Positions 3,505 through 57,835 of a DNA stretch of 64,000 bases are shown piece after piece. A program made the position numbers and the translations under genes. Numbering within the stretch: position 1 is the stretch's first letter; the number at the start of each line of letters is the position of its first letter. The DNA is from Ricordea florida (lineage: Eukaryota > Cnidaria > Anthozoa > Corallimorpharia > Ricordeidae). The stretch spans positions 7,426,450 to 7,490,449 of the forward strand of contig OX453286.1 of the NCBI GenBank assembly GCA_949710005.1. Direction: 5' to 3'. The notes under the pieces are model-generated. The model saw only the letters and a list, made by a program, of their open reading frames with translations, ran no database searches and was not told the DNA's origin.

Positions 3505-3612
3505 GCCTCCAAACTAGAGATGCCTTACAGTAAGATCTAACTTGTCAATAACGATATTTCTGTCCTTACGCAAGTTACATGTTGTCAGTTACAACAGTTG
3601 CTGGAATGTTAG
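3505..3612 (-). pseudogene. Relic of FReD exon (copy A exon 3 remnant)
   Basis: The reverse strand aligns with the part of exon 3 that encodes the C-N-C-D-K-N-D to L-P-V-R-Q-L-R-F-G stretch of the fibrinogen-related domain, but with substitutions and indels that destroy the frame. The rest of the exon is not recognisable. A similar scrap lies at 45625-45785. This is the only trace of exon 3 for copy A inside the window. Confidence 0.6.
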
Positions 3613-3727
3613 TCTTAAGTAAGCTTAGTCTTTACACATACTTATGAAACACGTGTTAGGCTTCAAGGCAAACAAGAAGAATTGCAAGAACACAACTAAA
3701 TGACAACGGTAGTGTTTAATTATTTAT

Positions 3728-3760
3728 AATTTAAGATTTAAGATTTAAGATTTAAGATTT
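3728..3760. repeat. AAGATTT tandem repeat
   Basis: About four and a half perfect copies of a 7-bp unit, in the intron side of copy A exon 2. Confidence 0.8.
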
Positions 3761-3926
3761 AATTATTAATACGAAGCTAATAGGTCTACAGCCAAAAAGA
3801 AAATTAATAAATACAAAACTGCGGACTTGCAAATCGTCCACCACTTGGTTCATCAGATTTCTGAAATAGTTGGCCTTTAATTACTCTTTTGTCTCTACAC
3901 TAGAATGCTTTAAGATTTCAACTTAC

Positions 3927-4538
3927 ACTGAACACTCAGTATAGCTGAGCTGTTGACTCGTCCCAGCAAATTTTCAGCTCTGCACATGTAAACTCCATCG
4001 TCTTCTGCTCTGACATCATTCAAAATCAGAGCGCCACTGGATTCTACCATGTGGCGTCCAACAGGAAGCGATGAGTTGACCTTGGACCACGTGATCCGTG
4101 GAGCTGGGTTTCCATCCACTGTACATTTCAAGATGGCTGTCTGACTTTGATTGACGGTCATTGCAACAGAAGACTCAAGCAGAGATGGAGCCGAGATGGA
4201 CTGGCCCGGTTCACCTTTCATGCCTTTTATGCCTTGTGGTCCTGTTGGTCCCGGGGGTCCAGGATCTCCTGGTATTCCCGGATCTCCCTTTATTCCCATT
4301 GGTCCTTGAGGTCCTATCGGTCCGTGTTTACCGGCAATGCCTGGTTTACCTCTCCTTCCTCTGTTTCCTCTTGGTCCGGGGCGGCACAGTATTTGATCCT
4401 TGGCACAGAATTGATTTTGCAGCGAATGGAGTTCTCGTCTGATCAACTGTTTCATTTCGGAGGCATTTTGGGTGGTATTTGACTGCAAACTGTCCAGTGG
4501 AGAACTTCGTTTTTGTCTTGAATTACTCTCCATAAAAA
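3927..4538 (-). CDS. Copy A exon 2: cleavage site, collagen stretch, Ig1
   Basis: 612 bp, acceptor CAG at 4541-4539 and donor GTAAGT at 3926-3921. It encodes the short collagen form (19 triplets) beginning after LCRPG, then an Ig domain with the LKCTVDGNP and GVYMCRAEN cysteine motifs. It is 27 bp shorter than the exon in B, D, E and F. Confidence 0.85.
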
Positions 4539-53829: not shown

Positions 53830-54390
53830 TTTGACAGACAAAACATTGGGATAATCAAACAAGTTGATAAAGTTTTTTATACCACCGTAGGGTTAAAAGG
53901 AAGGTGCTGACGTTTCGAGCGTTAGCCCTTCTTCAGAGGGAATGACAGGATTATAGGTTATGTGCAATTTACATCGAGAGGTTTGGAGCTAAGCTATTAG
54001 TGGAGCCATAGTAACATATGAACGAGAGAAAATTAATGAAATGAATGAAAAGCGTTGGTTAACGATAGAGTTGGAAGATAAATCTTTGTTCTAGGTTTTT
54101 ATGGCTTTCCGTGTTACCCTGATGCAGCGAAAGGCCGCAGATTCAGATTGTCATGGTTTGAGTGGAATCGTTAGACAGATTAAGGTGTCGCTCTACTGGT
54201 TTAGATGCTTCTTTGTCGTTTCTTTCAACATCACGCAGATCTTCGCGAAAAACGGTCACCTAGTCTTCTTCCGATCTCGCCTTCCGATCTTCTTGCATAA
54301 GGTCCATTTTATGCGATAAATAACATTGGCAAGAGTGCATGTGAAGCGGTCAGAGATTTAAATCGATCGCTTAGCTCCTGTTACTTTGTC
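53830..54390 (-). mobile_element. Penelope-like element 3' fragment in copy F intron 2
   Basis: Homologous to 42110-42690, with the same GIY-YIG-region pieces and 3' tail. Because copies E and F share it at the same place, it predates the E/F duplication or exchange. Confidence 0.72.
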
Positions 54391-55407
54391 TGTGTTGTGA
54401 ATAAAAAGACAAGTGTTACATCTTTTGCCGGAAGAAGATCAGGTGACTGTTAGTGTTTCAATTACCCACTGACGTAGCAACAGTTTCCTTAGACACTACC
54501 CCCACATTACTTGTTACGAGTTGTGATAGGACAACAGGAGGTAAGGAGAAATTTTACTCAAATCAGTACCAGCGTGGTATTAGCAAAAATTCATTAAACT
54601 TAGCAAGGCCTTGACAAAGACGAAAACGTCAATTCACAATGCAGACGGATTATACTTGTAAACTTGTGAAACAGCCGTCGCTAAGTTAGTTTAATGCAAA
54701 TAGGATCAAAAAGCAATTTCTTCTGTTTTAAATTTCTGTTACTATATTCTACACTTGGACTGTTCTTGGAGATTATTGATAAGGGCTAAGCTAGTTTAAT
54801 CATTGTAAGTGCATAAACTGGATTGTTACGGACGTTCACCGCATTTTTCTCAATCGGGCGCGTCGATCAAGTATTGATTAGTGGCGTTAATGACTTAATA
54901 AGAGAAGTGCACGGAGGACAGTCAACAACGATTTTGTGAGGACACTTTTAAGCACTGTAAGCTTCAAGAATTGATTATAACTGTAAAGGCGGGCAAGTTT
55001 TCGATGAGGGCTGTGCAGATTGTGTTACCTGAGAATCTACAGAGAATATTTCCCGACGTTCAGAGCATTTAAGATTATTTAAATGAATGTTAAATTCCTT
55101 GAGCTTATTTGGTGTCGTCAGACTATGATAGTAAGAGTTTGACAGCCACATGGACACTGAAGTGATCTCAATGTTTTAGTGACATGTCCAGGAATCATAT
55201 GCACTTGCCTATTCCATTGGTCCTTTATTATTGTTATTTTTCTATTATTCTCTTATCAGCGAAACAAAATCAACGAAAAAACGGAACGAAATCAGCTTAC
55301 TCCTATTACAAATCGAATAATCAGTTTTTCTTAAATTGGTCGATGTCTTATTCCTTTTTTTCCCTAACATGTCAACATTTAATACAACAATGAACTACAC
55401 AACTTAC
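54391..55407. other. Copy F intron 2, no gene
   Basis: Collinear with 42700-43730 of copy E. No coding sequence recognised. Confidence 0.5.
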
Positions 55408-56046
55408 ACTGAACAGTCAGTTTGGCGGAGCTGTTGACTCTTCCTAGTAAATTTTCAGCTCTGCAGATGTAAACTCCATCGTCTTCTGCTCTGACATCAT
55501 TCAAAATCAGAGCGCCACTGGACTCTACCACGTGGCGTCCAACAGGAAGCGATGAGTTGACCTTGGACCACGTGATCCGCGGAGCTGGGTTTCCATCCAC
55601 TGTACATTTCAAGATGGCTGTCTGACTTTGATTGACGGTCATTGCAACAGAAGACTCAAGCAGAGATGGAGCCGAGATGGACTGTCCCGGTTCACCTTTC
55701 ATGCCTTTTATGCCTTGCGGTCCTGTTGGTCCCGGGGATCCAGGATCTCCTTGTATTCCCGGGTCTCCCTTTATTCCCATTGGTCCTTCAGGTCCTATCG
55801 GTCCGTGTTTACCAGGAGGTCCTATCGGTCCGTGTTTACCGGGAATGCCTGGTTTACCTCTCCTTCCTCTGTTTCCTCTTAGTCCGGGGCGGCACAGTGT
55901 TTGATCCTTGGCACAGAATTGATTTTGCAGCGAATGGAGTTCTTGTCTGATCAACTGCTTCATTTCGGAGGCATTTTGGGTGGTGATTGACTGCAAACTG
56001 TCCAGTGAAGAGCTTCGTTTTTGTCTTGAATTACTCTCCATAAAAA
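55408..56046 (-). CDS. Copy F exon 2: cleavage site, 22-triplet collagen, Ig1
   Basis: 639 bp, acceptor ACAG (56049-56047) and donor GTAAGT at 55407. A 23-bp word starting GGTCCTATCGG occurs at 55791 and again at 55818, giving the GKHGPIGP segment twice with a 27-bp period. Confidence 0.88.
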
Positions 56047-57570
56047 CTGTAAAGTACAATCAGAACTAGAACCTTGAATCAGGTGTTACTCGGGTACATA
56101 CTGAGCAGACAGCGCAAGCTGTGCGATTAGGTGCTACGCAAACATCTGTTTTTCTGTGGCATTCATAGAATTGTACCATCCCTGCTTAGTAATCTCTGAG
56201 AAACATTTGATTTCATTTGAGTTCCATTTGAGTTAATTTGTCTTTTGAGTTTGCGGAACGACCCGGTTCGAAACTGACGTTCCAACGCGAACAGCGTGTG
56301 CGTCTGCACGCAATTTAAGCTACTTACAAGGAAAGGAAGTTGCCATAATTGCCCTGAAAATATTATTTTGAATCAAACTCTGAACGCTGAACACTGCTTC
56401 AACTGAGCTTCGACTTTTGTTGAAGACTCCTCAGTTCCTGCTCGGCTGCACATTCACGACATCTATAGATAGATACATAGATTTATTGATAGACCACACA
56501 AACTTCCACTCACGCCCGCCCTGAGCGTGCACGACTAATTAACTTATACAAAATAAAGAAAAATCTTAATGACAGAATTGACGATATATTATTAAAGTAG
56601 ATATGCTCACAACACCATATCCAGCAGTTTACCTTATTTATTTCTATTCGCATTTCCTTCATCTCTATCCATCATTTAGCCTCAAATGATCTTACTGTGC
56701 TTTTTGGAGCGTGAATTCAGGAAACGATAGGAAGGCCTGACCGTTACAGCTGTGTCACGATGGTGAACTGCTTTTCTGATGTAGTGACGTAACTGTTATA
56801 GTTGAGTCACGGTGAAGATTCAATCAAATCTTATGATGCTCTATAGCTTATATCCATTTTACAGCTAAGATTTATGTTGATGGTCACGTTCGTAAGACTC
56901 TTTTCTACAATCTGCGCACAGAACACGTGACACAGTTATTTTTGTAAAGGGCATGTTACTTCCTTGTGTGCTGAAACGCTCAGAAAGGAAAATGCTCCTA
57001 CTGGGCACTTTGTCTCTGCAAACTCTTCTCATTTTTTGTGTTGATCTAGCTCGAAAGTGGAATTGCCACACTGCAAAACCTGTTAAACTTAGCCGTTTTT
57101 TGGTCTTGGAATAGAGCACCAAGTTAAATAGCAAAAGTTTCAAATATCGTCTATTTTGATCAGTAAAGAGAAAGTAAAACTTTCAAAGACTTTGCCTTTC
57201 AGTCATGCATAAAACAACATGCGGTCCATCTTATGTCTGTACTTCCATTCATGAGGCTCTTCTAATCAAAGGGTTCTCTCAAGTATTATTACAATACAAA
57301 GCTATTTTTTTATCAAATGAGCGCTTCCAGTTTATAACATTCAGGAAATTTGGCCAAAAAGATTTTAAATGCTCGACTTGTGACTTCACTCACCATCTGA
57401 TCGAAAAACAACGCAGTCGATCAATACTGTAAAGACAACTCGCCTTTTGATCACTTTTATAATAGACAGGGCTTAATTCTTAAGAAAACCACTCGACAGC
57501 TCTTAACCACTCACTAGATCTTATGAGGAAGGGGAGGCATTAAATACCAGAACAGACTCTTATTATTTAC

Positions 57571-57835
57571 CTCCTCTTCCTTTCCACTGGCTGCGTGCCA
57601 TAACCTGATATCTCACGTGATACTGTTGTACTTTACCAAGGATTTCTTTCTCCATCTGATCTCGCAATGTTACTGAGTGTGAGATCAGTTCATGATGACG
57701 TTGCATCCTAAGTTCCATGCGAATTAGTGCCACACAACACACAACAGACAGCACCAAACCTGACACTGAGCACACACTGTACAATAGTTTGCTATCCCTT
57801 CTCTCCTGTCCATCTTTGCTTCCTTGATTCTTCAT
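57571..57835 (-). CDS. Copy F exon 1: tail, signal anchor, stalk
   Basis: 265 bp, ATG at 57835, donor GTAAAT at 57570. A-like (tail MKNQGSKDGQERRDSK, end QWKGRG). Confidence 0.85.

Follow-up and report, generated by a model that had tools for sequence, protein, structure and literature searches.

The window analyzed here, a stretch of 64,000 nt from the corallimorpharian Ricordea florida (contig OX453286.1; C15:7426450-7490449 in a genome of 537.8 Mb), forms part of a large tandem array with about forty genes. In three genes of the window, denoted B, D, and E, the encoded protein consists of a membrane span, a furin-type site, 24 Gly-X-Y triplets, three immunoglobulin (Ig) domains, and a fibrinogen-like domain, in this order, a layout similar to that of the cnidarian proteins known as CniFL. 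The interpretation that we favor, with some reserve, is that the locus is part of a CniFL-like tandem array that provides a diversified recognition repertoire for microbes or symbionts, with a putative immune role. The gene structure, the array, recombination among its copies, variability of the loops of the last domain, and constraint on both the scaffold of that domain and a dispersed copy of the gene are all supported by the computations.

In a search of the window with exon translations, exons 1 and 2 were each found six times; exon 3 occurs five times, once in truncated form, and there is one exon-3 relic. These counts agree with the six genes, A to F, that had been recognized in the initial annotation. 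Genes B, D, and E, all on the minus strand, yield, after splicing at GT/AG sites, a single open frame of 2,049 nt (265+639+1145 nt, 682 aa), so that the claim of three fully open copies with identical exon lengths holds; from start to stop, these genes span 4.0 to 4.8 kb. In gene B, exon 1 (16314..16578) encodes a short tail, the membrane span, and a stalk; exon 2 (15177..15815) encodes the furin-type site, a linker, the collagen stretch, and Ig1; and exon 3 (12603..13747) encodes Ig2, Ig3, and the fibrinogen-like domain (12606-13202). The corresponding exons 1, 2, and 3 are located at 26745..27009, 24186..24824, and 22185..23329 in gene D and at 44858..45122, 43731..44369, and 40726..41870 in gene E. 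Protein identity among the window copies is about 72 to 100% over hundreds of residues (67 to 69% for the relic), which excludes a chance origin.

The size of the cluster in the initial annotation, 55 kb, delimits only a slice because the array continues on both sides and covers about 0.7 Mb. A query with exon 3 produced at least 110 matches genome-wide, of which at least 38 are near-full-length copies at C15 6.94-7.64 Mb, 28 of these on the minus strand. In 34 of the 38, exon 3 is open and ends in the conserved C terminus, the rule by which a copy was counted as open, and one further copy is open with a variant end; an open exon 3 does not equal an intact gene, gene C of the window being among the 34. 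With exon 2 as the query, at least 42 places in the array were matched over at least 175 of the 213 residues, 39 of the 42 without stops; both exon counts are lower bounds. A stretch of 0.17 Mb fetched from outside the window (C15 6.936-7.109 Mb) contains 13 copies of exon 1, 12 of exon 2, and 11 near-full copies of exon 3, which form 11 sets ending in exon 3, nine of them open with usable splice sites (eight with the furin-type motif) and two damaged, plus two further units that comprise only exons 1 and 2. Scattered paralogs are also present on contigs other than C15.

Units of exons 1 and 2 without a near-full exon 3 recur at window positions 3927-7826, C15:7011340-7015230, and C15:6964838-6967249; the stretch that includes exon 2 of gene A matches the 7.011-Mb unit at 99.8% over 2.1 kb. 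Such units are possibly relics that were duplicated, or else short genes for collagen and Ig1. Elsewhere in the genome, clusters of collagen-Ig1-like exons with about 37 to 48% identity were observed at C1:41.09-41.37, C1:23.32-23.50, C1:44.87-45.03, C4:29.95-30.06, and C7:4.29-4.38 Mb, which suggests, by sequence likeness, a wider superfamily of collagen-Ig genes.

The three-exon structure is supported by two lines of evidence. First, an intact intronless copy, in which the three exons are joined into an open frame of 694 codons from the first family-type methionine, lies at C10:20631748-20633937. In its longest matches to the window genes, this copy is 77 to 81% identical at the nucleotide level, and its ratio of nonsynonymous to synonymous substitution rates (dN/dS) against B, D, and E is 0.27 to 0.30. 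No poly-A tract was seen in the 3' flank examined, and, most simply, this copy would have arisen long ago by processing of a spliced message and appears to have been kept under constraint since. Second, six protein clusters of 620 to 631 aa from other sources derive from contigs no longer than 2.1 to 2.6 kb, shorter than the span of genes B, D, and E.

Splicing, Pfam matches, and a motif search together bear out the gene model and domain order of the initial annotation. In B and D, the collagen family PF01391 scores 53.0 and 53.7 bits (cut-off, 27.2), and three I-set Ig stretches exceed the Pfam cut-off in each protein. B, D, and E each possess one hydrophobic span at residues 21-40 (Kyte-Doolittle value, 2.2 to 2.3), the membrane span being defined here as a single hydrophobic window on this scale. 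One furin-type motif per protein is located at residue 96, and the 24 Gly-X-Y triplets start at residue 140; across the window and the fetched stretch, an R-X-K/R-R motif precedes the collagen in 17 of the 18 copies of exon 2. Because the span is near the N terminus and the folded domains come after it, a type II membrane orientation is predicted. The short collagen helix would allow assembly into trimers, with the three Ig domains and the C-terminal fibrinogen/procollagen-propeptide-like domain displayed at the far end, and cleavage at the furin-type site ahead of the helix could shed them.

The copies of the array are domain mosaics. Over the first 240 aligned bases of exon 3, which cover most of Ig2, genes C and D are 93 to 95% identical, E and F are 96 to 97% identical, and B shows 79 to 91% identity to E and F, whereas identity between the two groups (C and D versus B, E, and F) drops to 47 to 65%. 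Conversely, within the last domain, at bases 601-720, identity among all five window copies is 93 to 99%. Gene E, for example, combines an F-like Ig2 with a B-like Ig3. In triplet tests of the window copies, the permutation P value was 0.001 in all 10 triplets, and 27 of the 30 pair comparisons gave values of ≤0.006, uncorrected for multiple tests. The pattern extends to the 34 array copies, among which Ig2 falls into two clusters (21 and 13 copies) and Ig3 into four, and only 13 have the same nearest neighbor across all three exon-3 domains. Among these copies, incompatibility of site pairs is 0.21 at distances of up to 50 nt and reaches 0.53 at distances above 800 nt; in a simplified form of the pairwise homoplasy index (PHI) test of our own, the observed local compatibility was reached in none of 1,000 permutations. 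Across 16 genes, the N-terminal type assorts independently of the Ig2 type (3, 5, 3, and 5 in the four combinations); this set includes several damaged genes, namely, C, F, the gene at 7094506, and the gene at 7065541, in which exon 2 is only partial and the expected position holds no donor. The mosaic tests thus show that exons and domains have been shuffled, and we infer that the underlying exchange between copies occurs by unequal crossing over or gene conversion.

Within the last domain, an alignment of gene B with 178 of 240 coral homologs (the domain-end pattern missed the other 62) revealed a conserved scaffold and variable clusters at residues 57-62, 99-107, 141-144 with 153, and 179-183. 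Largely the same clusters vary among 19 Oculina paralogs alone. Much of the scaffold is fixed; of the 195 columns of the domain, 50 lie below 0.1 bit. Loop codons were then defined by thresholds taken from the other corals (sets of 31, 25, and 20 codons), which replaced a set of 24 codons picked by eye. For the five window copies, the ratio of the proportions of nonsynonymous and synonymous differences (pN/pS) in the loops is 1.19, 1.33, and 1.71 for the 31-, 25-, and 20-codon sets, respectively; the observed pN was reached by none of 5,000 random sets at each of the three thresholds, and an equally high pS was found in 70, 257, and 880 of the 5,000. In the array, where 34 of the 38 near-full copies were used, the 25 loop codons have a pN/pS of 1.03 compared to 0.29 in the remaining 170, with 17 of 2,000 random sets as high. 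A few loops of the last domain thus vary on a conserved scaffold, and these loops are candidates for a role in recognition.

The initial annotation described the domain combination as unusual. This does not hold among cnidarians: full-length relatives with the same domain order were identified in five coral genera (Oculina patagonica, Montipora, Porites, Stylophora, and Acropora), and the combination has been published as CniFL (PMC5094078, accessible part). The octocoral Dendronephthya gave a partial match. In three homology searches, the relatives that bear a species name are anthozoan; no actiniarian name occurs among the best 120 rows of each search, most rows being nameless. The furin-type motif is present in seven of the eight compared relatives whose sequence covers that region, and B, D, and E form a clade of their own relative to the other 50 of 53 rows (support, 100/100). 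The Oculina relatives have closely spaced gene numbers (G012172 to G012218, G013071 to G013083, and G039810 to G039885), which suggests that arrays exist in Oculina, too. No published account of such a coral array was found in a literature search to which subscription papers were mostly inaccessible.

In addition to the intact genes, the window holds three damaged ones. Gene A (minus strand) retains only exon 1 (7562..7826, 265 nt) and exon 2 (3927..4538, 612 nt); the search detected no exon 3 beyond the latter in the window. Downstream, likeness to the gene D intron stops at 3756, and the segment from 3608 down to 3264 (3264..3608, minus strand) is a fragment with an 80% match to DNA upstream of gene E, behind which no exon was found. 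Gene C, on the plus strand, consists of exon 1 (17923..18190, 268 nt), an exon 2-homologous stretch (19592..20192), and an open exon 3 that reads on into a longer tail (20577..21847, 422 codons). The normal acceptor of its exon 2 is lost: the 190 nt upstream of that exon contain 16 AGs, and use of any of them fails to give an open frame; an alternative AG 31 nt inside exon 2 would preserve the frame and bypass the furin-type site. In gene F (minus strand), exon 1 (57571..57835, 265 nt) and exon 2 (55408..56046, 639 nt) are followed by a truncated exon 3 of only 971 nt (52482..53452), with homology to the other copies ending at about 52480-52486. The N-terminal type shared by A, C, and F, as opposed to B, D, and E, was considered as a meaningful feature and dropped, six genes being too few. 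As for the several relics initially reported, there is only one exon-3 relic, limited to the fibrinogen-like part (46017..46423, minus strand), along with the upstream-like fragment at 3264-3608.

Mobile elements are interspersed with these genes. A BEL/Pao-type long terminal repeat (LTR) retrotransposon lies between D and E (30932-38434), and the insertion looks young because its two 469-bp LTRs are 99.8% identical. A Gypsy-like element with identical 329-bp LTRs (58547-63497) is located about 0.7 kb upstream of the start codon of gene F, and its first position, 58547, coincides with the end of the homology between the regions upstream of A and F. Finally, several frames at 48800-52485 adjoin the break in exon 3 of gene F and may belong to an unclassified mobile element; three of these frames were scanned, with no Pfam match.

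Several observations weigh against a recognition repertoire of CniFL kind, beginning with the nature of the last domain. In B, C, D, and E, this domain scores 17.4 to 21.2 bits against the fibrinogen family PF00147, below the cut-off of 22, and the match covers only about the first 50 residues; among 57 family members, 19 match PF00147 at an E value of 0.01, and all 57 contain the fibrinogen-like NCBIfam motif (GGGWT). Modeled alone, the domain reaches a predicted local distance difference test (pLDDT) value of 62.8, that is, low confidence, and a fold search with this low-confidence model recovered procollagen C-propeptides, with fibrinogen-type folds weak and ranked far below them; when all of exon 3 was modeled, the matches were confined to Ig domains. 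Overall, the last domain seems nearer to the C-propeptides of procollagens and to domains of the Caspr type than to those of ficolins. The Caspr-type label of the initial annotation is supported by the database names of two relatives, “neurexin-4-like” and “contactin-associated protein-like 2.” The hallmark of ficolins is a complete canonical fibrinogen C domain with a calcium- and acetyl-binding site. Because the domain scores below the Pfam fibrinogen cut-off, it should not be taken to have a ficolin-like sugar site; the label “ficolin-like” may mislead, and acetylated sugars should not be presumed to be ligands of this domain. Clusters of the fibrinogen-like domain alone, with 57 to 71% identity, also occur at C12:2.10-2.22 Mb and 20.79-20.82 Mb and are possibly the EGF- or C-type lectin-linked forms seen in other proteins.

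The remaining counterarguments concern the loops, the copy number, and the mode of action. In the 34 array copies, pS is also raised in the loops (0.34 versus 0.15), and a loop pN/pS near 1 is compatible with relaxed constraint; with the raised pS and with recombining copies, the loop pattern indicates freedom to vary, perhaps with diversifying selection, and is no proof of selection. Half of the window copies (three of six) are damaged. Array blocks that are 99.7 to 99.8% identical, about 235 and 420 kb apart, could be assembly duplicates or unmerged haplotypes, in which case the copy count would be lower, or else recent duplications. Pfam detected no signaling domain in B or D, and the N-terminal tail comprises about 20 residues; direct signaling is therefore unlikely, and more plausible modes of action are tethering, opsonization by the shed form, or partners of the complement type. 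Furthermore, CniFLs are found in non-symbiotic as well as symbiotic anemones (PMC5094078, as far as its available text goes), which weakens a symbiont-specific role.

Even so, a repertoire of membrane-bound and shed multivalent receptors that would recognize microbes or symbionts remains our preferred interpretation, and the wording of the initial annotation, a candidate recognition or adhesion locus, appears right. A more far-reaching version, in which about forty linked genes assort N-terminal, Ig2, Ig3, and last-domain variants through recombination, the four loop clusters of a propeptide-like domain are subject to diversifying selection, and each genome would hold a private repertoire of shed trimeric proteins directed at microbes, symbionts, or other colonies, is possible and is put forward only tentatively. 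To our knowledge, corals have no adaptive immunity, yet they must tell apart symbionts, pathogens, and neighbors. About forty linked genes that recombine and encode membrane-bound, possibly shed receptors, with loops that vary at set positions, would give a concrete and testable source of this specificity.

Among the alternatives, an allorecognition locus, with variable membrane proteins that distinguish self from other colonies through specificity in the Ig domains and loops, would fit the large mosaic array, the variable loops, the deeply split Ig2 types, and the membrane span. However, a broader role is suggested by the constrained intronless copy and by the paralogs dispersed over other contigs, and the allorecognition proteins of hydroids are type I and contain other domains, so we regard this as unlikely. 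It is similarly doubtful that these proteins serve in cell adhesion or the matrix, in the manner of gliomedin or Caspr, and underwent neutral tandem expansion, with loops variable because they are unconstrained: the variable loop positions largely coincide with those of other corals and of the Oculina paralogs, much of the scaffold is fixed, and most full-length copies are still open. A role as stinging-cell or secretory components, in which shed collagen-Ig-fibrinogen-like proteins of the cnidocyte would not be receptors at all, is compatible with release at the furin-type site and with the expansion of fibrinogen-related proteins and their expression in mature Nematostella cnidocytes (PMC12549020); nevertheless, the accessible portion of that paper does not describe this domain layout, and proteins of the same layout have been proposed as immune receptors (PMC5094078, in part), which renders such a role very improbable. 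A mostly decaying array with few working genes is the least probable reading because, for all the damage in A, C, F, the relic, and two of the 11 exon sets of the fetched stretch, an open frame is kept in 34 of the 38 near-full copies of exon 3 and in 39 of the 42 places matched by exon 2, and the scaffold pN/pS is 0.29.

The closest known system is CniFL, which is reportedly also tied to the 2015 Aiptasia genome paper; the likeness is one of domain layout and comprises a membrane span, collagen, usually three Ig domains, a C-terminal fibrinogen-type domain, and several copies per species. According to the text available from PMC5094078, CniFLs are recognized by the joint presence of fibrinogen, Ig (usually three), and collagen domains, and most of them also have a membrane span; they number 0 to 7 per actiniarian transcriptome and are putative immune receptors. 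In Exaiptasia, CniFLs are up-regulated on Vibrio infection (PMC7654579, partial text), and their expression is said to be higher in aposymbiotic animals (PMC4840205, partial text, citing Baumgarten 2015). The locus described here differs from these in that about forty genes form one mosaic array, compared to the published 0 to 7 per transcriptome, and in that the last domain falls below the PF00147 cut-off and its model is more procollagen-propeptide-like; PF00147 as a criterion of CniFL membership was taken here at the Pfam cut-off, a value not stated in the accessible part of PMC5094078. Thus, the cnidarian domain layout was already known, and what is added is a large recombining array with variable loops.

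Other systems share parts of the layout. Snail fibrinogen-related proteins (FREPs) are a diversified family of secreted proteins that join Ig and fibrinogen-related domains without collagen or a membrane span, both of which are present in the window proteins. Gliomedin and other membrane collagens have the type II orientation, the furin-type site, and short collagen; gliomedin ends in a C-terminal olfactomedin domain, whereas the window proteins have Ig domains instead, and the olfactomedin family is absent among the Pfam matches for B and D. The likeness to Caspr/neurexin-IV lies in the database names of the two relatives of the last domain, the rest of the Caspr architecture being unrelated to that of the window proteins. 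Finally, the window domains differ from the fibrillar procollagen C-propeptide (COLFI, PF01410), against which they score 17.4 to 26.1 bits, below the Pfam cut-off of 26.2 in all four domains tested.

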